Positions 931 through 9,203 of a DNA stretch of 64,000 nt are shown here, one piece after another. This DNA is from Egibacter rhizosphaerae (GTDB lineage Bacteria > Actinomycetota > Nitriliruptoria > Euzebyales > Egibacteraceae), in NCBI RefSeq assembly GCF_004322855.1, contig NZ_CP036402.1, forward strand, positions 3,100,001-3,164,000. Direction: 5' to 3'. The notes under the pieces are model-generated. The model was not told where the DNA came from. It saw only the letters and a list, made by a program, of their open reading frames with translations, and did no database searches. A program made the translations under genes and the position numbers. Position 1 is the stretch's first letter, and each line of letters opens with the position of its first letter.

Positions 931-954
931 GTACTGACACGCTCTTGTCAGTAC
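931..954. promoter_or_regulatory. Palindromic operator candidate in front of the sugar operon
   Basis: GTACTGACA and TGTCAGTAC form a perfect 9-bp inverted repeat separated by 6 bp. The left arm contains the -35-like hexamer and the rest covers the promoter spacer, the usual geometry of a repressor site. The most obvious ligand is the GntR-family protein encoded at 5717-7249 in the same gene cluster. That link is inferred from position only. Confidence 0.6.
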
Positions 955-962
955 AGGATAAC
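934..962 (+). promoter_or_regulatory. Sigma-70-type promoter candidate for the sugar operon
   Basis: CTGACA (934-939) and GATAAC (957-962) are separated by 17 bp, a good match to housekeeping -35/-10 spacing. The start point would fall near 969, giving a leader of about 95 nt before the GTG start at 1064. The promoter is overlapped by the perfect palindrome at 931-954. Confidence 0.5.
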
Positions 963-1063: not shown

Positions 1064-1810
1064 GTGCGCACGGTCATCGTGACGGGAGCGACGCGGGGCA
1101 TCGGGAGCGCGACGGCGCTCGAGCTCGCCCGGCGGGGATGGTGGGTGCTCGCCACGGGGCGCGATGCCGAGGAGGGTGCCGACGTCGAGAAGTGGATGCA
1201 GGACGTCGGGACGGGTCGGTTCGTGGCCGTCGATCTGCTCGAGGAACGGGCACCGGAGCAGGTGACGGCGGCGGCGCTCGAGGCCACAGGACGGATCGAC
1301 GGGCTGGTCAACAACGCGGGGGTCATCCATCCCGCACCGCTGGACGAGCTCGACATGGATGTCTACGACCGCCTCATGCGGCTCAACGTGCGGGCCGCCG
1401 TCGCGCTCGGCAAGGAGGTGGTCCCGCCGATGCGCCGACAGGGCGGGGGAGCCATCGTGAACGTCTCGAGCGAGGCCGGGCTCGTCGGCTTCCCCGGACA
1501 GGTCGCCTACAACATCTCGAAGGCGGCGCTGGTGATGCTCACGAAGTCGATCGCGGCGGACTACGCCTCGGACGGCATCCGCGCACTGACCGTGGCCCCG
1601 GGGACCACGCGGACGCCGCTGGTGGACGCTCTTATCGCGAACGCGCCCGATCCCGGTGAACAGGAGGCGGCGCTCACTCGCATCCGGCCCCAGCAGCGGC
1701 TCGGGACGCCCGAAGAGGTAGCGGCCGTCATCGCGTTCGCGATGAGCGACGACGCCGCGTTCATGACCGGCACGGAGCTGGTCTGCGACGGCGGCAAGAC
1801 GGCGGTGTAG
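1064..1810 (+). CDS. SDR-family NAD(P)-dependent oxidoreductase
   Basis: A 248-aa classical short-chain dehydrogenase. The cofactor motif TGATRGIG is at residues 7-14, NNAG near 87-90, and the catalytic Ser, Tyr and Lys occur as NVSSE and YNISK. The C-terminal part (PEEVAAVIAFAMSD..MTGTELVCDGG) is typical of the family. The GTG start is chosen because a GGGAG sequence sits 6 bp upstream and the cofactor motif follows at the expected distance. It is the first gene of a run of eight same-strand genes with sugar transport and aldolase functions, so a likely role is oxidation or reduction of a sugar or sugar acid, as in gluconate or 2-keto-3-deoxygluconate dehydrogenases. Substrate cannot be read from the sequence. 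Confidence 0.85.
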   Translation: MRTVIVTGATRGIGSATALELARRGWWVLATGRDAEEGADVEKWMQDVGTGRFVAVDLLEERAPEQVTAAALEATGRIDGLVNNAGVIHPAPLDELDMDVYDRLMRLNVRAAVALGKEVVPPMRRQGGGAIVNVSSEAGLVGFPGQVAYNISKAALVMLTKSIAADYASDGIRALTVAPGTTRTPLVDALIANAPDPGEQEAALTRIRPQQRLGTPEEVAAVIAFAMSDDAAFMTGTELVCDGGKTAV

Positions 1811-1836: not shown

Positions 1837-2211
1837 ATGCGGTTCACCGTCTTCGAGAAGCGCGGCGACGAGGTCGGCGCGCGGGTGGTCGAGAAGCCCG
1901 AGTTCGAACCGTTCACGCACTTCGACGGCGCGCCGCTGCGCGCGGTCCAACGGGCGGACGTCACCAGTGCGCCCGGGGTCCGCACCGAGATGGTGCACAT
2001 CGCCGCCGGCGGCCACTTCGTGATGCACGCCAGTCCGGACGTGGCGGTGTGCAACGTGATCCGCGGCCGCGGCGAGCTCGTTCTGCCCCAGGGCGAGGTG
2101 CTCGGGTACGAGGCCCCCGAGCTCTACGTCTTCCTGCCGGACACGCTGCACGAATGGCGCAACATCGAGGCCGACACCCTGCTCTCGACCGCGTTGGTCG
2201 AGGCGCGCTAG
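1837..2211 (+). CDS. Small cupin-domain protein
   Basis: A 124-aa protein with a single double-stranded beta-helix (cupin) fold suggested by the central stretch MVHIAAGGHFVMHASPDVAVCNVIRGRGELVLPQGE and a second-motif-like PDTLHEWRN. Histidines at the usual metal positions are present but spacing is relaxed, so metal binding is plausible rather than certain. It begins 26 bp after the SDR stop with GAGGGAAGG as ribosome site. In sugar-acid operons such cupins are often isomerases, epimerases or sensors (KdgF-like proteins are an example); none can be assigned here. Confidence 0.7.
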   Translation: MRFTVFEKRGDEVGARVVEKPEFEPFTHFDGAPLRAVQRADVTSAPGVRTEMVHIAAGGHFVMHASPDVAVCNVIRGRGELVLPQGEVLGYEAPELYVFLPDTLHEWRNIEADTLLSTALVEAR

Positions 2212-2370: not shown

Positions 2371-3384
2371 ATGAGCCGTGAAGACACCCCCCTGTTGACC
2401 GACGAGGCCGCCGCCCCGGGCGCGCCCCCGCGGGTCCTGCCCATCACCGGCCCCGTGCCCGCGCCGTTCCTCGCGCCGGCGCTGATGGTGCTGATCTTCG
2501 GGATCGTCATGGCGGTCTTCGAGCCGTCGTTCTTCGCGTGGGGGAACCTGCGCAGCGTGCTGCTCGACGCCGCGCTCTATCTGGTGCTCGGCGTGGGGAT
2601 GACCTTCGTGATCACCGCCCGCGGCATCGACCTCTCGATCGGCGGGATCATCGTGTTCTCGGGCGTGGTGATGTCGGCCGTCATCCTGGATCTCGGGATG
2701 CCCGCCTGGGTGGGGATGCTCGCGTGCCTGGCCGCGGGCGCGGCCTGCGGGCTCTTCAACGGCCTGGTGATCCAGAAGGCCAAGGTCCCGGACCTGATCG
2801 TCACGCTCGCGAGCGAGTTCGTGTTCCGCGGGCTCGCGCTCATCTACGCGGGGGGTCAGATCTTCTACGGGTTCCCGGAGGCGATCGGCTGGATCGGCTC
2901 CGGGCGTGCCGGGCCGCTGCCAATCCCGATCATCATCGGCGTTCTCACCATCCTGGCCGGCCACGCGTTCCTCACCTGGCACCGGTACGGCGTGCGGCTG
3001 CACGCGGTCGGCGGCGATCCGGTGTCGGCGAACCAGATGGGCATCGACGTCCCCCGCTACCGGGTCGGTGTGTACGTGATCATGGGCCTGCTCGCCGGCC
3101 TCGGGAGCATCATCCTCGCCGGTCGGCTCGACGCGGTCGTGGCCAGCGGCCAGGAAGCCGTGATGCTCCACACCATCGCCGCGGTGATCGTCGGCGGGAC
3201 CCGGCTCTTCGGCGGCCGCGGGACGATTCTCGGGACGCTGCTCGGGGCGGTCCTCCTCTCGATGATCGGCAACGCCGTCGTGATGCTCGGGTTCGAGTCC
3301 TTCTGGCAGCTCGTGGCATCCGGTGTCGTGATCATCGTCACGATCGCCCTCTACGCGCACCGCGAGCGGTCCGTCCTGACCTAG
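2371..3384 (+). CDS. Sugar ABC transporter permease (RbsC/BPD_transp_2 family)
   Basis: A 337-aa polytopic protein with about nine hydrophobic segments and the family signature region SANQMGIDVPRYRVGVYVIMG followed by a glycine-rich IVGGTRLFGGRGTILGTLLGA. The protein is the membrane channel of a ribose/xylose/galactose-class (CUT2) importer. I chose ATG 2371, preceded by GAGGAG with 9-nt spacing; an in-frame TTG at 2332 would add 13 residues. Only one permease gene is present, so a homodimer is expected, as for RbsC. Binding protein and ATPase follow immediately downstream on the same strand. The transported sugar is unknown. Confidence 0.88.
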   Translation: MSREDTPLLTDEAAAPGAPPRVLPITGPVPAPFLAPALMVLIFGIVMAVFEPSFFAWGNLRSVLLDAALYLVLGVGMTFVITARGIDLSIGGIIVFSGVVMSAVILDLGMPAWVGMLACLAAGAACGLFNGLVIQKAKVPDLIVTLASEFVFRGLALIYAGGQIFYGFPEAIGWIGSGRAGPLPIPIIIGVLTILAGHAFLTWHRYGVRLHAVGGDPVSANQMGIDVPRYRVGVYVIMGLLAGLGSIILAGRLDAVVASGQEAVMLHTIAAVIVGGTRLFGGRGTILGTLLGAVLLSMIGNAVVMLGFESFWQLVASGVVIIVTIALYAHRERSVLT

Positions 3385-3513: not shown

Positions 3514-4848
3514 ATGGGTGACAGGCGGATGAGAGCCGGACTGGCGGTGTTGTTCGCGCTGATGCTCGCACTGGCGGCAGCGTGCGCCGAGGAAGAACCC
3601 GACGACGTGGCGGCCGACGATCCCGACGACGAGGCCGCACCCGACGACGACCCCGACGACGATGAGCCCGACGACGAGCCGGACGACGACGAACCTGATG
3701 ACGAGCCGGACGACGAGGCCGACGATGAGCCGGACGACGAGGCCGACGAGCCGGAGGCCGACCCCGAGGAGGCGTTCCCGGAGTCCTCGCACGAGCGGGG
3801 CGTGGCCACCGTGAGCGAGTTCCACGAGGCCTTCCCCGAGCACGAGCAGCTGATGGACGACCTGCTGGAGGTCGTGAGCGACGACGCCGAGGAGGCGGAC
3901 GTCGACCTGGACGAGCCGGTCCAGATCCTGTTGTTCATCCCGAGCCTGGAGGTCGGTGATGCATGGGCCCATCTCGAGGCGGGCCTCACGTTGCGGCTGG
4001 ACGAGCTCGGGATCGACCACGAGATCACCGACTTCCTCGTCGAGCCCGACGAACACGACACCCAGGCGTCGCAGGTCGAACAGGCGCTCGCCTCGGCCGA
4101 CGACTACGACTTCGCGCTCTATGCCCCCACCGAGTGGGAGGCCCAGAAGGGGCACGTGGCGCGCTTGTCGCAGGAGCTACCGACGATCGCCTACAACGTC
4201 GCGAACCCGTTCCCCGACCTCTGGGGGACCGAGGAGTCGCCGATCAGCCACATCGCGTTCGATCACGAGGTCGGCGCACTGGAGCTGTGCGACTGGGCGA
4301 TCGAGGAGCTCGACGACGGCGACCAGATCGCGCTGCTGCGCTTCGTTCGCGGCTTCGTCGACGACATGCGCAGCGGCACCTTCGCCGACTGCGTCGAGGA
4401 GAACTCCGGCATCGAGGTCGTCACCGACTACGAGACCGACGGCGACCAGGAGAAGGCGTTCGCCGGAGCAGGGACGGTCCTGTCCTCGTATCCGGACGTC
4501 GACATGATGCACGCCGCCTCGACCGCGATCACGCTCGGCGCGTCCGCTCAGCTGGAGGAGCGGGGCGTGGCCGACGACGTGATCATCAACGGGTGGGGCG
4601 GCACCGAGGAGGAGCTCAACGCGCTCCGCGAGGACGACATCGACGTCACGGTCTTCCGCCAGATCGACGACTGGGGCGTCGCGGGCGCCGAGATCATCCG
4701 CATGCACCTCGAGGGTCGTGAGGACGAGGTCCCCGGCGCGGTGTCGCCCGAGATGATCACGATGGATCAAACGTTCAGCGACGAGGACATCGACGCCGAG
4801 CTCGAGTACGCGTTCCGCTACATCGACCAGGTGCGCGGCGACGACTGA
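3514..4848 (+). CDS. Sugar ABC transporter substrate-binding lipoprotein with acidic linker
   Basis: A 444-aa secreted lipoprotein. Residues 1-23 are a signal peptide ending in the lipobox LAAAC with Cys24 as lipid anchor. Residues about 25-90 are an Asp/Glu/Pro repeat (DDEPDDEP units), an extended acidic tether. The rest is a type I periplasmic-binding fold (Peripla_BP_4/RbsB-like; VQILLFIPSLEVGDAWAHLE, later DVIINGWGGTEEELNAL). It would capture the sugar outside the membrane for the permease at 2371. Start ATG is preceded by AAAGGG. The acidic linker is much longer than in typical RbsB proteins and matches the style of other lipoproteins in the window, suggesting adaptation to high salt or pH. 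Confidence 0.88.
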   Translation: MGDRRMRAGLAVLFALMLALAAACAEEEPDDVAADDPDDEAAPDDDPDDDEPDDEPDDDEPDDEPDDEADDEPDDEADEPEADPEEAFPESSHERGVATVSEFHEAFPEHEQLMDDLLEVVSDDAEEADVDLDEPVQILLFIPSLEVGDAWAHLEAGLTLRLDELGIDHEITDFLVEPDEHDTQASQVEQALASADDYDFALYAPTEWEAQKGHVARLSQELPTIAYNVANPFPDLWGTEESPISHIAFDHEVGALELCDWAIEELDDGDQIALLRFVRGFVDDMRSGTFADCVEENSGIEVVTDYETDGDQEKAFAGAGTVLSSYPDVDMMHAASTAITLGASAQLEERGVADDVIINGWGGTEEELNALREDDIDVTVFRQIDDWGVAGAEIIRMHLEGREDEVPGAVSPEMITMDQTFSDEDIDAELEYAFRYIDQVRGDD

Positions 4849-4929: not shown

Positions 4930-5691
4930 GTGGCCATCGAGATGACCGGCATCAGCAAGAGCTACGGCGCGGTGAAGGCGATCGAGGGAGTCGATTTCAC
5001 CGTCGAGCCCGGGGAGATCGTCGGGCTCGTGGGCGACAACGGCGCCGGCAAATCCACGTTGATCAAGTGTCTGTCCGGCGTGCTGCAACCGGACGAGGGC
5101 GAGATCGTCGTGGACGGGCAGCGGCGCCAGTTCCGCACCCCGAACGAGGCCCGCGCAGCGGGGATCGAGACCCTGTACCAGGATCTGGCCCTGTCGGACG
5201 GCTTGAACGTCGCCATGAACGTCTTCCTGGGTCGCGAGGTGACGACGCGGGGCGGGTGGCTCAAGTTCCGCGAGATGCACGAGCACGCGAGCCGCATCAT
5301 CAACCGCTTCTCGATCCGCGAGGTCGAGACCACCACCTACGTGAAGAACATCTCCGGCGGGCAACGGCAGGTCGTCGCGCTGGCGCGCACGCTCGGCTTC
5401 GGCTCGCGCTACGTGATCCTCGACGAGCCGACCTCGGCGTTGAGCCCGGCGGCGGCCGACGAGGTCATCGAGGTGGTGCGCAACCTGCGCGAGGAGGGCT
5501 TCGGGGTGGTCATGATCACCCACAACGTGCCGCACGCGTTCGAGACCACCGACCGCATCGTGGTGATGCACCTCGGTGAGATCGCCGGGGAACGGGTGAC
5601 CCGCGAGGCCACGCACCAGGAGATCGTGTCCTTGGTCATGGGCGCGCAGAGGATCGCCGACGAGTCGCCCCCGCCGGCCGACCGATCCTGA
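4930..5691 (+). CDS. Sugar ABC transporter ATP-binding protein (single ATPase domain)
   Basis: A 253-aa ATPase. Walker A is GDNGAGKST, the signature is ISGGQRQ, Walker B is YVILDEPTSA and the switch histidine lies in MITHNV. GTG 4930 is chosen because AAGGAG sits 5 bp upstream; a longer frame to 4858 would begin in the stem-loop. CUT2 importers such as RbsA usually carry two fused ATPase domains of about 500 aa; this one has only one, as in FrcA-type fructose importers, so it would act as a homodimer with the permease at 2371. Membrane-associated, cytosolic face. Confidence 0.9.
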   Translation: MAIEMTGISKSYGAVKAIEGVDFTVEPGEIVGLVGDNGAGKSTLIKCLSGVLQPDEGEIVVDGQRRQFRTPNEARAAGIETLYQDLALSDGLNVAMNVFLGREVTTRGGWLKFREMHEHASRIINRFSIREVETTTYVKNISGGQRQVVALARTLGFGSRYVILDEPTSALSPAAADEVIEVVRNLREEGFGVVMITHNVPHAFETTDRIVVMHLGEIAGERVTREATHQEIVSLVMGAQRIADESPPPADRS

Positions 5692-5716: not shown

Positions 5717-7249
5717 ATGAGTGCCATCGATCGCGAGTCCCCGCTGCCGCTGTACCACCAGCTGGAGCGCGTCCTGCGGGACGCCATCGAGCAGGGCGAG
5801 TACGCGCCCGGTGAGCTGCTGCCCAGCGAGAGCGAGATCTGTCGCCGCTACGACGTGTCGCGCAGCGTCGTGCGTCAGACGCTGACGAACCTCGCGCACG
5901 CGGGGCTGGTGCACACCGAGCGGGGCCGGGGCACCTTCGTCGCCGAGCGGAAGGTCCCCGAGCACTTCGTCCAGCGCACGGCCGGGCTGTTCCGCGACCT
6001 CGCCGGCCGCGGCTTCGACATGCAGACCCGCGTCCTCGGCCAGGAGCTCGTCGAGCTGCCGCTCGCGGTCCAGGAGTTCCTCGGGGTGCCGCGCGGGCTG
6101 CGGATCGAGCGGTGCCGGCTGGTCGAGGGCAAGACGATGATGTACGTGCTGAGCTACATCCCCGAGGGACGTTGCCCCGGACTCGAACACGACGACCTCG
6201 ACGACCGGTCCCTGTACGAGCACATCGAGGCGACCTACGGGCTCCGCGTGGCGCGAGGACGACGCAGCGTCGAGGCCGCGGCGGTCGACGAGCGCGTCGC
6301 GGACATCCTCGACGTGGCGCCGGGCGCGCCGGTGCTCGTGCTCCGTAGCCAGACGTACGCCGACGACGGTCGGCCGTTCGAGGTGTTCGAGGCCTGGCAC
6401 CGGGCCGACCGCACGCGGTTCGAGATCGACATCGCCCCGGAGGGCGAGGCGGTGCCCGTGCGCCATTCGCCGACCGGTGACGCCGCTGGCCAGCCGAGTT
6501 CGGTGGACGGCCTCGGCGACTTCCTGGCAGGGGGGCTCCACTTGGCGTCCGCCGCCGAGAGCGGTCGTCTGCTCGGCGTCGAGGTGGGGGTGTGTCCGTC
6601 GGCCGACGCCCTCGTGGACCGGTTGCGGGCCGAGCGCCTGGTGGCCGTGCTGCGCGCGCCGCACTACGCCCAGCCGGCGGGGGTCGCGCGGGCCCTCGAG
6701 AGCGGGGGCGTCTCGATCGTCGAGTTCACGTTCACGGGCGAGAACGCCCTCGAGAGCATCGAGGCCGCGCGGTCGGCGAGCGATCGCATCCTGGTCGGCG
6801 CCGGGTCGGTGTTCACCCTCGCGCAGGCGCGCAGCGCTGTCGAGGCGGGCGCGCAGTTCGTCGTCAGCCCGGTGGGTGTACCCGAGGCGGCGAGCGCGTC
6901 GCTCGGCGTTCCCGTGATGTCGTCGGGCCTCACCCCCAGCGAGGTGCACGCGGCGGCGGCGCGCACCGAGGCCCCCGTCAAGTTGTTCCCGGCGTCCGTC
7001 GGGGGCCCCGGCTACGTCCGGGCACTCACCGAGCCGATGCCCGACATCGCGCTCGTCCCCTCGGGTGGTGTCACCGTCGACAACGCGGTCGACTACCTCG
7101 AGGCCGGCGCGCTCGCCGTCCACGCGGGGGGTGCGCTCGCGCCGCGAGCAGCGCTCGTCGACGGGGACGTCTCGGCGATCGAGGCGCGGGCTGACCGCTT
7201 CGTTCGCGCCCTTCACGGATACCGCACCCGACAGGAGATCGGTGGATGA
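5717..7249 (+). CDS. GntR/UTRA transcription regulator fused to a KDPG/KHG aldolase
   Basis: A 510-aa two-part protein. Residues about 5-75 are a GntR winged helix (PLYHQLERVLRDAI..PSESEICRRYDVSR, then ERGRGTFV). Residues about 85-235 are a UTRA ligand domain of the HutC type. After a linker, residues about 300-505 are a complete KDPG/KHG aldolase: Glu336 in IVEFTF and Schiff-base Lys422 in VKLFPAS lie 86 apart, close to the spacing of the corresponding residues in E. coli Eda, and GAGSV, VVSP and PSGGV motifs are intact. There is no stop or frameshift between the halves. Its stop overlaps the next start (ATGA). The simplest reading is a regulator that carries the pathway's aldolase and controls the operon around it; catalysis by the C-terminal half looks possible. 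Sequencing-level fusion error cannot be excluded but the frame is clean. Confidence 0.9.
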   Translation: MSAIDRESPLPLYHQLERVLRDAIEQGEYAPGELLPSESEICRRYDVSRSVVRQTLTNLAHAGLVHTERGRGTFVAERKVPEHFVQRTAGLFRDLAGRGFDMQTRVLGQELVELPLAVQEFLGVPRGLRIERCRLVEGKTMMYVLSYIPEGRCPGLEHDDLDDRSLYEHIEATYGLRVARGRRSVEAAAVDERVADILDVAPGAPVLVLRSQTYADDGRPFEVFEAWHRADRTRFEIDIAPEGEAVPVRHSPTGDAAGQPSSVDGLGDFLAGGLHLASAAESGRLLGVEVGVCPSADALVDRLRAERLVAVLRAPHYAQPAGVARALESGGVSIVEFTFTGENALESIEAARSASDRILVGAGSVFTLAQARSAVEAGAQFVVSPVGVPEAASASLGVPVMSSGLTPSEVHAAAARTEAPVKLFPASVGGPGYVRALTEPMPDIALVPSGGVTVDNAVDYLEAGALAVHAGGALAPRAALVDGDVSAIEARADRFVRALHGYRTRQEIGG

Positions 7250-8211
7250 CCCAGGAGCACACCGCTGCGCGGCCCGTCGTCCGAGGTGATCCCACGCTCG
7301 GCTTCGTGGGGGTCACCGCCAGCCGTTCCTCCATCAACGACGTGTTCCCGCTGTGGTCCGAGGAGCTCGGCCTCGACGGGGCACGGCTCGAGCCGTGGGA
7401 CATCCCGCAGGACGCGGACGATCGGATGTACCGTCGCGTCCTCGAGGACCTCCGCGGCGATCCGCGCTTCCTGGGCGCGCTCGTCACCAGCCACAAGCTG
7501 CGGTTGATCGAGGCGGCCGGCGACCTCATCGACGAGTACGACGAGCACGCGCGCCGGCTCGGGGAGGTCTCGTGCCTCTCGAAGCGCGACGAGCGGGTAC
7601 GGGCCCACGCGAAGGATCCGATCACTGCCGGCAGGGCGCTGTGGGGCTTCGTGGCCCCGGACCACTTCGCCGACACGGGCGCCGAGGTGCTCTGTCTGGG
7701 CGCCGGGGGCTCGGGACTCGCCCTGACCATCCATCTGCTGGCGATGGTCGAGCCGTCACGCCGGCCGTCCCGGATCACCCTGGTCGACCGGGACGCGAGT
7801 CGGCTGGAGGAGGCCGAACGCTTGCACCGCGACCTCGGCGATGCCGGGGTCGCGATCGAGTGCGTGACGAACGCCGTGCCGGAGGAGAGCGACCGGCTGG
7901 TGGCGGGCCTGCCCGAGGCGTCGCTGGTGGTGAACGCGACGGGGCTCGGCAAGGACGCGCCCGGGTCGCCGCTCACCGACGACGCCCTGTTCCCCCACCG
8001 GGCGCGGGTCTGGGACTTCAACTACCGCGGTGATCTTCGGTTCCTCGCGCAGGCCCGGGCGCAGGAGCGCGCACGGGAGCTGGTCGTCGAGGACGGCTGG
8101 GACTACTTCGTGCACGGGTGGAGCGAGGTCGTCTCGGAGGTGTTCGGGATCCCGCTCGACGACGCCCTCGTGCGGCGACTCGGTGGCCTCGCCGCGGCGG
8201 CCCGCTCGTGA
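7246..8211 (+). CDS. Shikimate dehydrogenase-like oxidoreductase
   Basis: A 321-aa member of the AroE superfamily. The substrate-domain motif VTSHK carries the candidate catalytic Lys84, the dinucleotide motif is LGAGGSGLA near residue 149, and NATGLGKDAPGSPL matches the family's conserved loop. It is longer than AroE (about 270 aa) and diverges in the substrate half, and it sits in a sugar-uptake operon, so it is probably not the biosynthetic shikimate dehydrogenase but a relative that oxidises or reduces a polyol, sugar acid or cyclitol. Overlaps both neighbours (ATGA before, GTGA after), so its translation is coupled to the regulator-aldolase and the hydrolase. Confidence 0.75.
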   Translation: MTQEHTAARPVVRGDPTLGFVGVTASRSSINDVFPLWSEELGLDGARLEPWDIPQDADDRMYRRVLEDLRGDPRFLGALVTSHKLRLIEAAGDLIDEYDEHARRLGEVSCLSKRDERVRAHAKDPITAGRALWGFVAPDHFADTGAEVLCLGAGGSGLALTIHLLAMVEPSRRPSRITLVDRDASRLEEAERLHRDLGDAGVAIECVTNAVPEESDRLVAGLPEASLVVNATGLGKDAPGSPLTDDALFPHRARVWDFNYRGDLRFLAQARAQERARELVVEDGWDYFVHGWSEVVSEVFGIPLDDALVRRLGGLAAAARS

Positions 8212-9203
8212 GCGACCCCGCCCCGGCGTCGACGGCCAGGGACGCTGGCGCGGGCGCCGCGCCCCGCGCCGACCCGCGGGTGGTGCGAACGGTCCTGGGG
8301 GACCGCCGACCGGACCTGCTCGGCCGTACCGACTATCACGAGCACCTGCGGCACGTGAGCCCGCTGCTGCCCGGCGAGGAACTCGACGACCCGGACCGCT
8401 CGGAGCAGGAGGCGGCGTCGCTCTCGGGGGCCGGCGTCGACGCCATCGTCGACCTGACGCCGATCGGGCTCGGCCGCGACCCCGCGTTCCTGCGCGCCGT
8501 GAGCGAGCGCACCGGGCTCGGGATCGTGATGGCGACGGGCGTGCACCGCGAGGCGCACTATCCCCAGGACCATCCCGTGCGCGCCCTCGACGAGCGGCGG
8601 TTGCAGCAGCGGTTCGTGCGGGACGTCCGGGAGAGCGCGATCGCCGACGCCGAGCCGCTCGCCGAGCCGGTGCGTGCCGGGATCCTCAAGGTCGGGATCG
8701 GCTACTGGTCCATCAGCGCGTTCGAAGCACGCGTGCTCGACGCGGCAGCCGCCGCCCACGCGGCGACCGGCGTCCCGGTGGCGTGCCACCTCGAGCTCGG
8801 CAGCGCGGCGTGGGAGGCGAGCGACCGCCTCGCCCGCGCGGGCGTTGCCCGTGACCGGCAGGTCCTGGCGCACTGCGACCGGAACCCGGACCCGGGCCTG
8901 CACGCGGAGCTCGCCGCGGCCGGCTGTTACCTCGGCTACGACGGTGTGGCGCGTCCGAAGCACTGGCCGGACTCGACGGTGCTGGACTGCCTCGTGGAGG
9001 TCGCCGCGCGCGGGGGCGCGGATCGCTTGCTGCTCGGCGGCGATGTCGCCCGACGCTCCTCCTACGTGTCGTACGGGGGGATGCCGGGCCTCGCCTACCT
9101 GCCGGAGCGGTTCCTGCCCCGGCTGCGTGAGCGAGCGCCGGAACTGGAAACCCGGATCATGTGCGACAACCCGGCGCGCCTGCTCGCGTTCGCGCCGCGA
9201 TAG
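8208..9203 (+). CDS. Phosphotriesterase-family metal-dependent hydrolase (probable lactonase)
   Basis: A 331-aa TIM-barrel hydrolase. Metal ligands of the phosphotriesterase family can be traced: His-x-His in DYHEHL, a candidate carbamylated Lys in ILKVGIGY, His in ACHLE, His in LAHCDRN and Asp in LLGGDVAR. The GTG start overlaps the previous stop. Characterised relatives without true phosphotriesterase activity hydrolyse sugar lactones, including phosphorylated furanose lactones; given the dehydrogenases and aldolase beside it, opening of a sugar lactone is the best guess. It ends the operon and faces a convergent carboxylase gene 43 bp away. Confidence 0.83.
   Translation: MSDPAPASTARDAGAGAAPRADPRVVRTVLGDRRPDLLGRTDYHEHLRHVSPLLPGEELDDPDRSEQEAASLSGAGVDAIVDLTPIGLGRDPAFLRAVSERTGLGIVMATGVHREAHYPQDHPVRALDERRLQQRFVRDVRESAIADAEPLAEPVRAGILKVGIGYWSISAFEARVLDAAAAAHAATGVPVACHLELGSAAWEASDRLARAGVARDRQVLAHCDRNPDPGLHAELAAAGCYLGYDGVARPKHWPDSTVLDCLVEVAARGGADRLLLGGDVARRSSYVSYGGMPGLAYLPERFLPRLRERAPELETRIMCDNPARLLAFAPR

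Follow-up and report, generated by a model that had tools for sequence, protein, structure and literature searches.

In Bacillus subtilis, the GntR/HutC regulator NagR (YvoA) consists of a winged-helix DNA-binding domain and a UTRA effector domain, after which the protein ends. NagR holds a sugar phosphate through Arg133, Arg135, Ser165 and Tyr167 (PMC4333415), and HutC operators follow a GT-N4-AC rule (PMC4494728). The MocR/GabR/PdxR regulators combine a GntR-type DNA-binding domain with the entire fold of a metabolic enzyme, an aminotransferase fold that carries a Schiff-base-forming lysine and replaces the effector domain. The Thermotoga maritima KDPG aldolase TM0066 (1wa3, 1vlw), finally, is a free enzyme in nature. 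No characterised protein with a GntR–UTRA–aldolase architecture was found in the open-access literature, a body that mostly excludes subscription journals, in line with what the first-pass annotation of the present DNA had claimed.

The window analysed here, a stretch of 64,000 nucleotides from Egibacter rhizosphaerae, encodes such a protein. A single 510-codon frame runs on the forward strand from the ATG at 5717 to the stop at 7249 with no internal stop, and contains three Pfam domains, all above the curated cut-offs (Table 1). With 68.7 bits for PF00392 against a cut-off of 27, the protein belongs to the GntR family, and its UTRA domain (PF07702, 118.6 bits against 23.8) places it in the HutC subfamily. 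The aldolase domain is full-length, covering positions 3–194 of the 196 in the PF01081 model. Described HutC members stop after the UTRA domain, which is not a strict family requirement; the window protein goes on for 270 residues that include the aldolase, an addition to the HutC-subfamily architecture with no loss. It shares with the MocR-type regulators the union of a GntR domain and a Schiff-base enzyme fold, but it retains the UTRA domain, has an aldolase fold and no PLP, and gave no aminotransferase match in Pfam. It thus falls outside the MocR subfamily, which is characterised by a fold-type I aminotransferase-like C-terminal domain with a PLP site.

Table 1. Features of the fusion gene and its surroundings, in window coordinates.
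Feature	Position	Strand	Remarks
Inverted repeat GTACTGACA-N6-TGTCAGTAC	931..954	.	arms 931-939/946-954; right arm inside predicted operator
Predicted operator CTCTTGTCAGTACAGGAT	942..959	+	about 105 bp before first operon gene
SDR dehydrogenase, first operon gene	1064..1810	+	Pfam
Small cupin	1837..2211	+	conserved in fusion clusters
RbsC-type sugar ABC permease	2371..3384	+	
Sugar-binding lipoprotein (Peripla_BP_4)	3514..4848	+	
Sugar ABC ATPase	4930..5691	+	single domain
GntR-UTRA-KDPG/KHG aldolase fusion gene	5717..7249	+	510 aa
Winged-helix GntR DNA-binding domain	5750..5941	+	residues 12-75; PF00392, E 3.3e-19
UTRA effector domain	6008..6415	+	residues 98-233; PF07702, E 2.4e-34
Inter-domain linker	6437..6607	+	residues 241-297
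KDPG/KHG aldolase domain	6617..7183	+	residues 301-489; PF01081, E 1.4e-31
Glu336 codon	6722-6724	+	catalytic residue of aldolase domain
Lys422 codon	6980-6982	+	catalytic residue of aldolase domain
Shikimate-dehydrogenase-like protein	7246..8211	+	start overlaps fusion stop codon (ATGA)
PTE-family (phospho-furanose lactonase-like) hydrolase	8208..9203	+	

The frame and its domains bear out the uninterrupted fusion that the first-pass annotation had read there. A sequencing frameshift at the join (residues 235–300), one of the findings that annotation had named as refuting its reading, is practically excluded because full-length fusions exist at seven additional loci, and eight fusion loci across seven genomes rule out a sequencing or assembly artefact. 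An internal start that would yield free aldolase was also considered and rejected: codon 292 is a GTG with a weak Shine–Dalgarno sequence, but the G076 fusion has no equivalent, showing that the site is not conserved.

The seven other fusions have the same three domains and are 45–54% identical to the window protein. One is encoded on the same chromosome (G000:C1:2247269-2248732; L002, L041:8752-10287; 49% identity), and the remainder come from two more Nitriliruptoria genomes (G076 and G290), from Jiangella aurantiaca and Phytoactinopolyspora halophila in the Jiangellaceae, and from two species of Chloroflexota, the phylum of Thermogemmatispora (G1141 and G1154). Fusions were present in 3 of 66 Nitriliruptoria genomes, in 2/22 genomes of the Jiangella family and 2/395 of its class, and in 2/301 of the Chloroflexota sample and 2/22 of the family of G1141 and G1154. 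None appeared in samples of 399 genomes from the phylum of L023 (Novosphingobium) and 396 from that of L036 (an Acidobacteria MAG), surveys that scored the few best candidates per genome and that divergent fusions could escape; plasmid records held no match covering most of the fusion query. A wide distribution was rejected on the basis of these samples and records. The fusion thus represents a genuine protein family, though a rare one, with eight loci in two bacterial phyla.

The fusion gene lies in the sugar-uptake operon that the first-pass annotation had described, with a permease, a binding protein and an ATPase around it. The neighbourhood shared among the fusions comprises an RbsABC-like importer, an FGGY kinase, a GPI-type cupin, a 2-hydroxyacid dehydrogenase, an SDR, a shikimate-dehydrogenase-like protein, a PTE-family lactonase-like protein and a small cupin, in some cases with IolG- and Zn-ADH-like dehydrogenases. 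The window operon is without the FGGY kinase, GPI-type cupin and 2-hydroxyacid dehydrogenase, whereas the paralogue cluster L041 has all three, together with an IolG-like dehydrogenase. Two points speak against the reading favoured below: no kinase that could supply a phosphorylated ligand is adjacent to the window operon, and neither a substrate nor a dehydratase of the pathway was identified. IolG-, IolM- and IolO-like genes occur near some fusions with scores below the cut-offs; an inositol-type substrate was considered and dropped, as there are no inositol-like genes beside the window copy and a literature search yielded nothing.

Several neighbouring genes have features of their own. The window ATPase is a single domain of 253 aa, whereas homologous clusters have a double-length RbsA-type protein of about 480–500 aa, and its surroundings revealed no second half. 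In the sugar-binding lipoprotein, the lipobox is followed by a long low-complexity stretch rich in Asp, Glu and Pro, suggestive of a halophilic host. The shikimate-dehydrogenase-like protein matches no Pfam family above cut-off, and several clusters have it conserved near their fusion gene.

The first-pass annotation had also pointed to a palindrome at 931–954 in front of the operon. The repeat is real, but the conserved operator-like site, at 942–959, overlaps it without being identical. This site is an 18-bp palindrome with a consensus of about ATCCTGTACGTACAGGAT; one version, TCCTGTACGTACAGGA, precedes the split GntR gene of L073, and related sequences occur ahead of genes for transporters or regulators in L082, L083 and L078. 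Scored with a matrix of five sites from these four loci, which left the window out but were chosen by eye after it had been seen, so that some selection is built in, the window site reached 26.0 bits, compared to 11.6 bits for the next best in the 64 kb and a maximum of 22.3 in 100 shuffles. Among loci outside the training set, L040:3530 scored 21.9 bits and L101:2282, before the SDR of the G076 cluster, 18.0 bits, neither score being reached in 500 shuffles. In the Chloroflexota the sites score weakly (13.7 and 12.3 bits, reached by 15–27 of 500 shuffles), and the paralogue cluster L041 has no clear site (70/500). In both G076 and the Chloroflexota, an SDR again lies downstream of the operator-like sites. 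The predicted window site contains the GT-N4-AC core of the HutC subfamily as GT-CAGT-AC; NagR has an operator of the same type with a different sequence. No sigma-70 promoter was found in 842–1100. Another good site, L018:2719 (22.9 bits, likewise outside the training set), lies near a stand-alone cousin of the regulator half in Prauserella (L018:5962-6828), whose cluster also encodes a GntP-like permease, a DUF1537-like kinase and a PdxA-like dehydrogenase, all named by eye.

The G076 operon is preceded by tandem operator-like sites (L101 2261 and 2282), and the L083 and L073 clusters have several each. As KDPG aldolases form trimers and HutC regulators form dimers, the aldolase might serve mainly as an oligomerisation platform, generating a multivalent repressor that bridges several operators. 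The retention of the domain in a catalytically dead member of the family, described below, would fit this arrangement. We nevertheless consider it improbable, because the entire window has a single strong site and because it leaves unexplained why the active site is conserved in seven of the eight fusions.

The first half of the protein resembles NagR over its whole length, in both winged-helix and UTRA domains (phmmer against solved structures, E 6e-34; Foldseek, E 2e-21). The positions with which NagR contacts the phosphate correspond in the alignment to R132, R134, S165 and Y167, which are identical in 8/8 fusions, as are R210 and E222. Since the phosphate-binding residues are invariant, the effector is likely to be a phosphorylated sugar or sugar acid, judging from the alignment. 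With the phospho-sugar pocket of the UTRA domain kept intact, the aldolase would not be needed as a sensor.

An AlphaFold model of the protein (mean pLDDT 78.8) contains two separately confident parts with a disordered stretch between them; pLDDT is below 50 for residues 236–290. Foldseek searches with the model returned NagR and KDPG aldolases. Across the fusion family, linker length ranges between 30 and 57 residues with 14–27% identity, compared to 38–75% for the domains and 67–75% between the winged helix of the window protein (residues 4–78) and those of the other fusions. The first-pass annotation had suggested that the aldolase may feed on, or sense, the compound that controls DNA binding; the length, hypervariability and disorder of the linker argue against rigid coupling of the two halves, and the aldolase domain would hang from the repressor by a long flexible tether.

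Among solved structures, phmmer matched the second half to the KDPG aldolase of Thermotoga as well as to designed proteins that descend from it. TM0066 has the same full barrel, with 34% identity and a TM-score of 0.87 by target length (Foldseek match to 1wa3: 210 columns, rmsd 2.6). Glu336 and Lys422, the general acid/base glutamate and Schiff-base lysine expected of a class I enzyme, align with their counterparts in KDPG aldolases of the Thermotoga type. At the position equivalent to Arg49 of E. coli Eda, the fusion has a Thr; TM0066 and the Thermotoga-derived sequences have the same Thr, and the missing Arg is therefore no argument against activity. The protein scored 140.4 bits against the Eda subfamily model TIGR01182 (NCBIfam; cut-off 156), and its substrate specificity should accordingly not be named Eda. 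Unlike TM0066, the fusion aldolase is tethered to a repressor.

Both catalytic residues are kept in 7/8 fusions in the alignment. In the one near-identical pair available, from the Chloroflexota (G1141 and G1154) and differing by few changes, dN/dS came to 0.08 (GntR), 0.13 (UTRA), 0.47 (linker) and 0.16 (aldolase); by this measure, the aldolase part is under purifying selection in this pair. The fusion is also the only PF01081 protein found in each of these two genome assemblies. With its full domain and its Glu and Lys retained, the second half appears to be a plausible enzyme and no relic, as originally proposed.

The exception is the G290 fusion (L009:1474-2997, L040), an open frame of 507 codons with a recognisable aldolase domain (PF01081, 65.7 bits), in which A and E replace the equivalents of Glu336 and Lys422. 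Two further changes are G363R and S364G, while the fold residues are kept. The same genome has a second, stand-alone aldolase. Because the domain is retained although both catalytic residues are lost, catalysis is not required in every lineage, which speaks against a purely enzymatic reading, and this member provides the best hint of a non-catalytic role. In the G290 protein, an enzyme may naturally have turned into a sensor or a scaffold.

Such a role could be that of a MocR-like sensor, in which a Schiff base at Lys422, or an emptied barrel, binds a keto acid and alters DNA binding, with catalysis secondary or lost. The MocR regulators show that a GntR winged helix can use an enzyme fold for sensing (PMC5320631, PMC6917764), and G290 would be in keeping with this. 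We regard it as fairly unlikely for the family, however: the UTRA domain is complete with its phospho-sugar pocket, the linker is long, disordered and hypervariable, the catalytic residues are kept in all members but one, and the split clusters described below possess a normal separate aldolase. A combined arrangement seems somewhat less likely still. The protein would then have two inputs, the UTRA domain reading a phospho-sugar and the aldolase both reading and removing, as a covalent Schiff base, a 2-keto-3-deoxy acid from that pathway, so that enzyme flux sets DNA binding; the G290 lineage would have lost catalysis and kept sensing or scaffolding.

The fused sequences form one clade in both the aldolase tree (support 97/100) and the GntR–UTRA tree (93/86), and in neither does this clade include a member that has split again. 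Both trees are compatible with a single fusion and wide transfer or losses after it; the aldolase tree singles out no nearest stand-alone relatives of the fused aldolases. The first-pass annotation would have been refuted by close relatives that always encode the two parts separately. This is not the case, and both forms occur: two other actinobacteria, from the class sampled around Jiangella (G557, L073; G708, L078), have homologous clusters with the same FGGY kinase, GPI-type cupin and 2-hydroxyacid dehydrogenase, a related regulator and operator-like sites nearby, but with the GntR–UTRA and aldolase functions in separate genes. The fusion would thus have joined partners that already shared a cluster, and most likely arose from the regulator and aldolase genes of one cluster. 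Separate genes in the clusters of relatives, together with the variable, disordered linker, might also point to an accidental fusion of operon partners, with two functionally unlinked proteins translated as one. We find this very improbable, since the fusion was kept over deep divergence in two phyla with no re-splitting, and since stoichiometric coupling of repressor and enzyme would normally be costly.

Probably, then, the protein is a bifunctional regulator–enzyme, a HutC-type operon repressor that carries an aldolase of its pathway on a flexible tether. Computation establishes the architecture, the family, a shared operator motif, the conservation of UTRA and catalytic residues and the split counterparts; from these we infer repression, effector class, catalysis and substrate as follows. 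The N-terminal GntR/HutC-type repressor would bind the 18-bp palindrome before the operon containing its own gene, and would let go of it once a phosphorylated intermediate, a sugar or sugar acid, occupies the NagR-like pocket of the UTRA domain. The C-terminal class I (Schiff-base) aldolase would split a 2-keto-3-deoxy acid from the same pathway into pyruvate and an aldehyde. The fusion would have originated from a regulator gene and an aldolase gene that lie in the same cluster in relatives.

There are few regulators that carry a whole metabolic enzyme, and those that exist serve as test cases for the evolution of enzymes into sensors. Here, split genes, an active-looking fusion and a dead-site fusion form a natural series in related clusters that mostly have one operator-like motif, making the contribution of the enzyme half to the switch directly testable. 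The motif also offers a candidate regulon signature for an undescribed sugar pathway in the Nitriliruptoria, the Jiangellaceae and perhaps the Chloroflexota.
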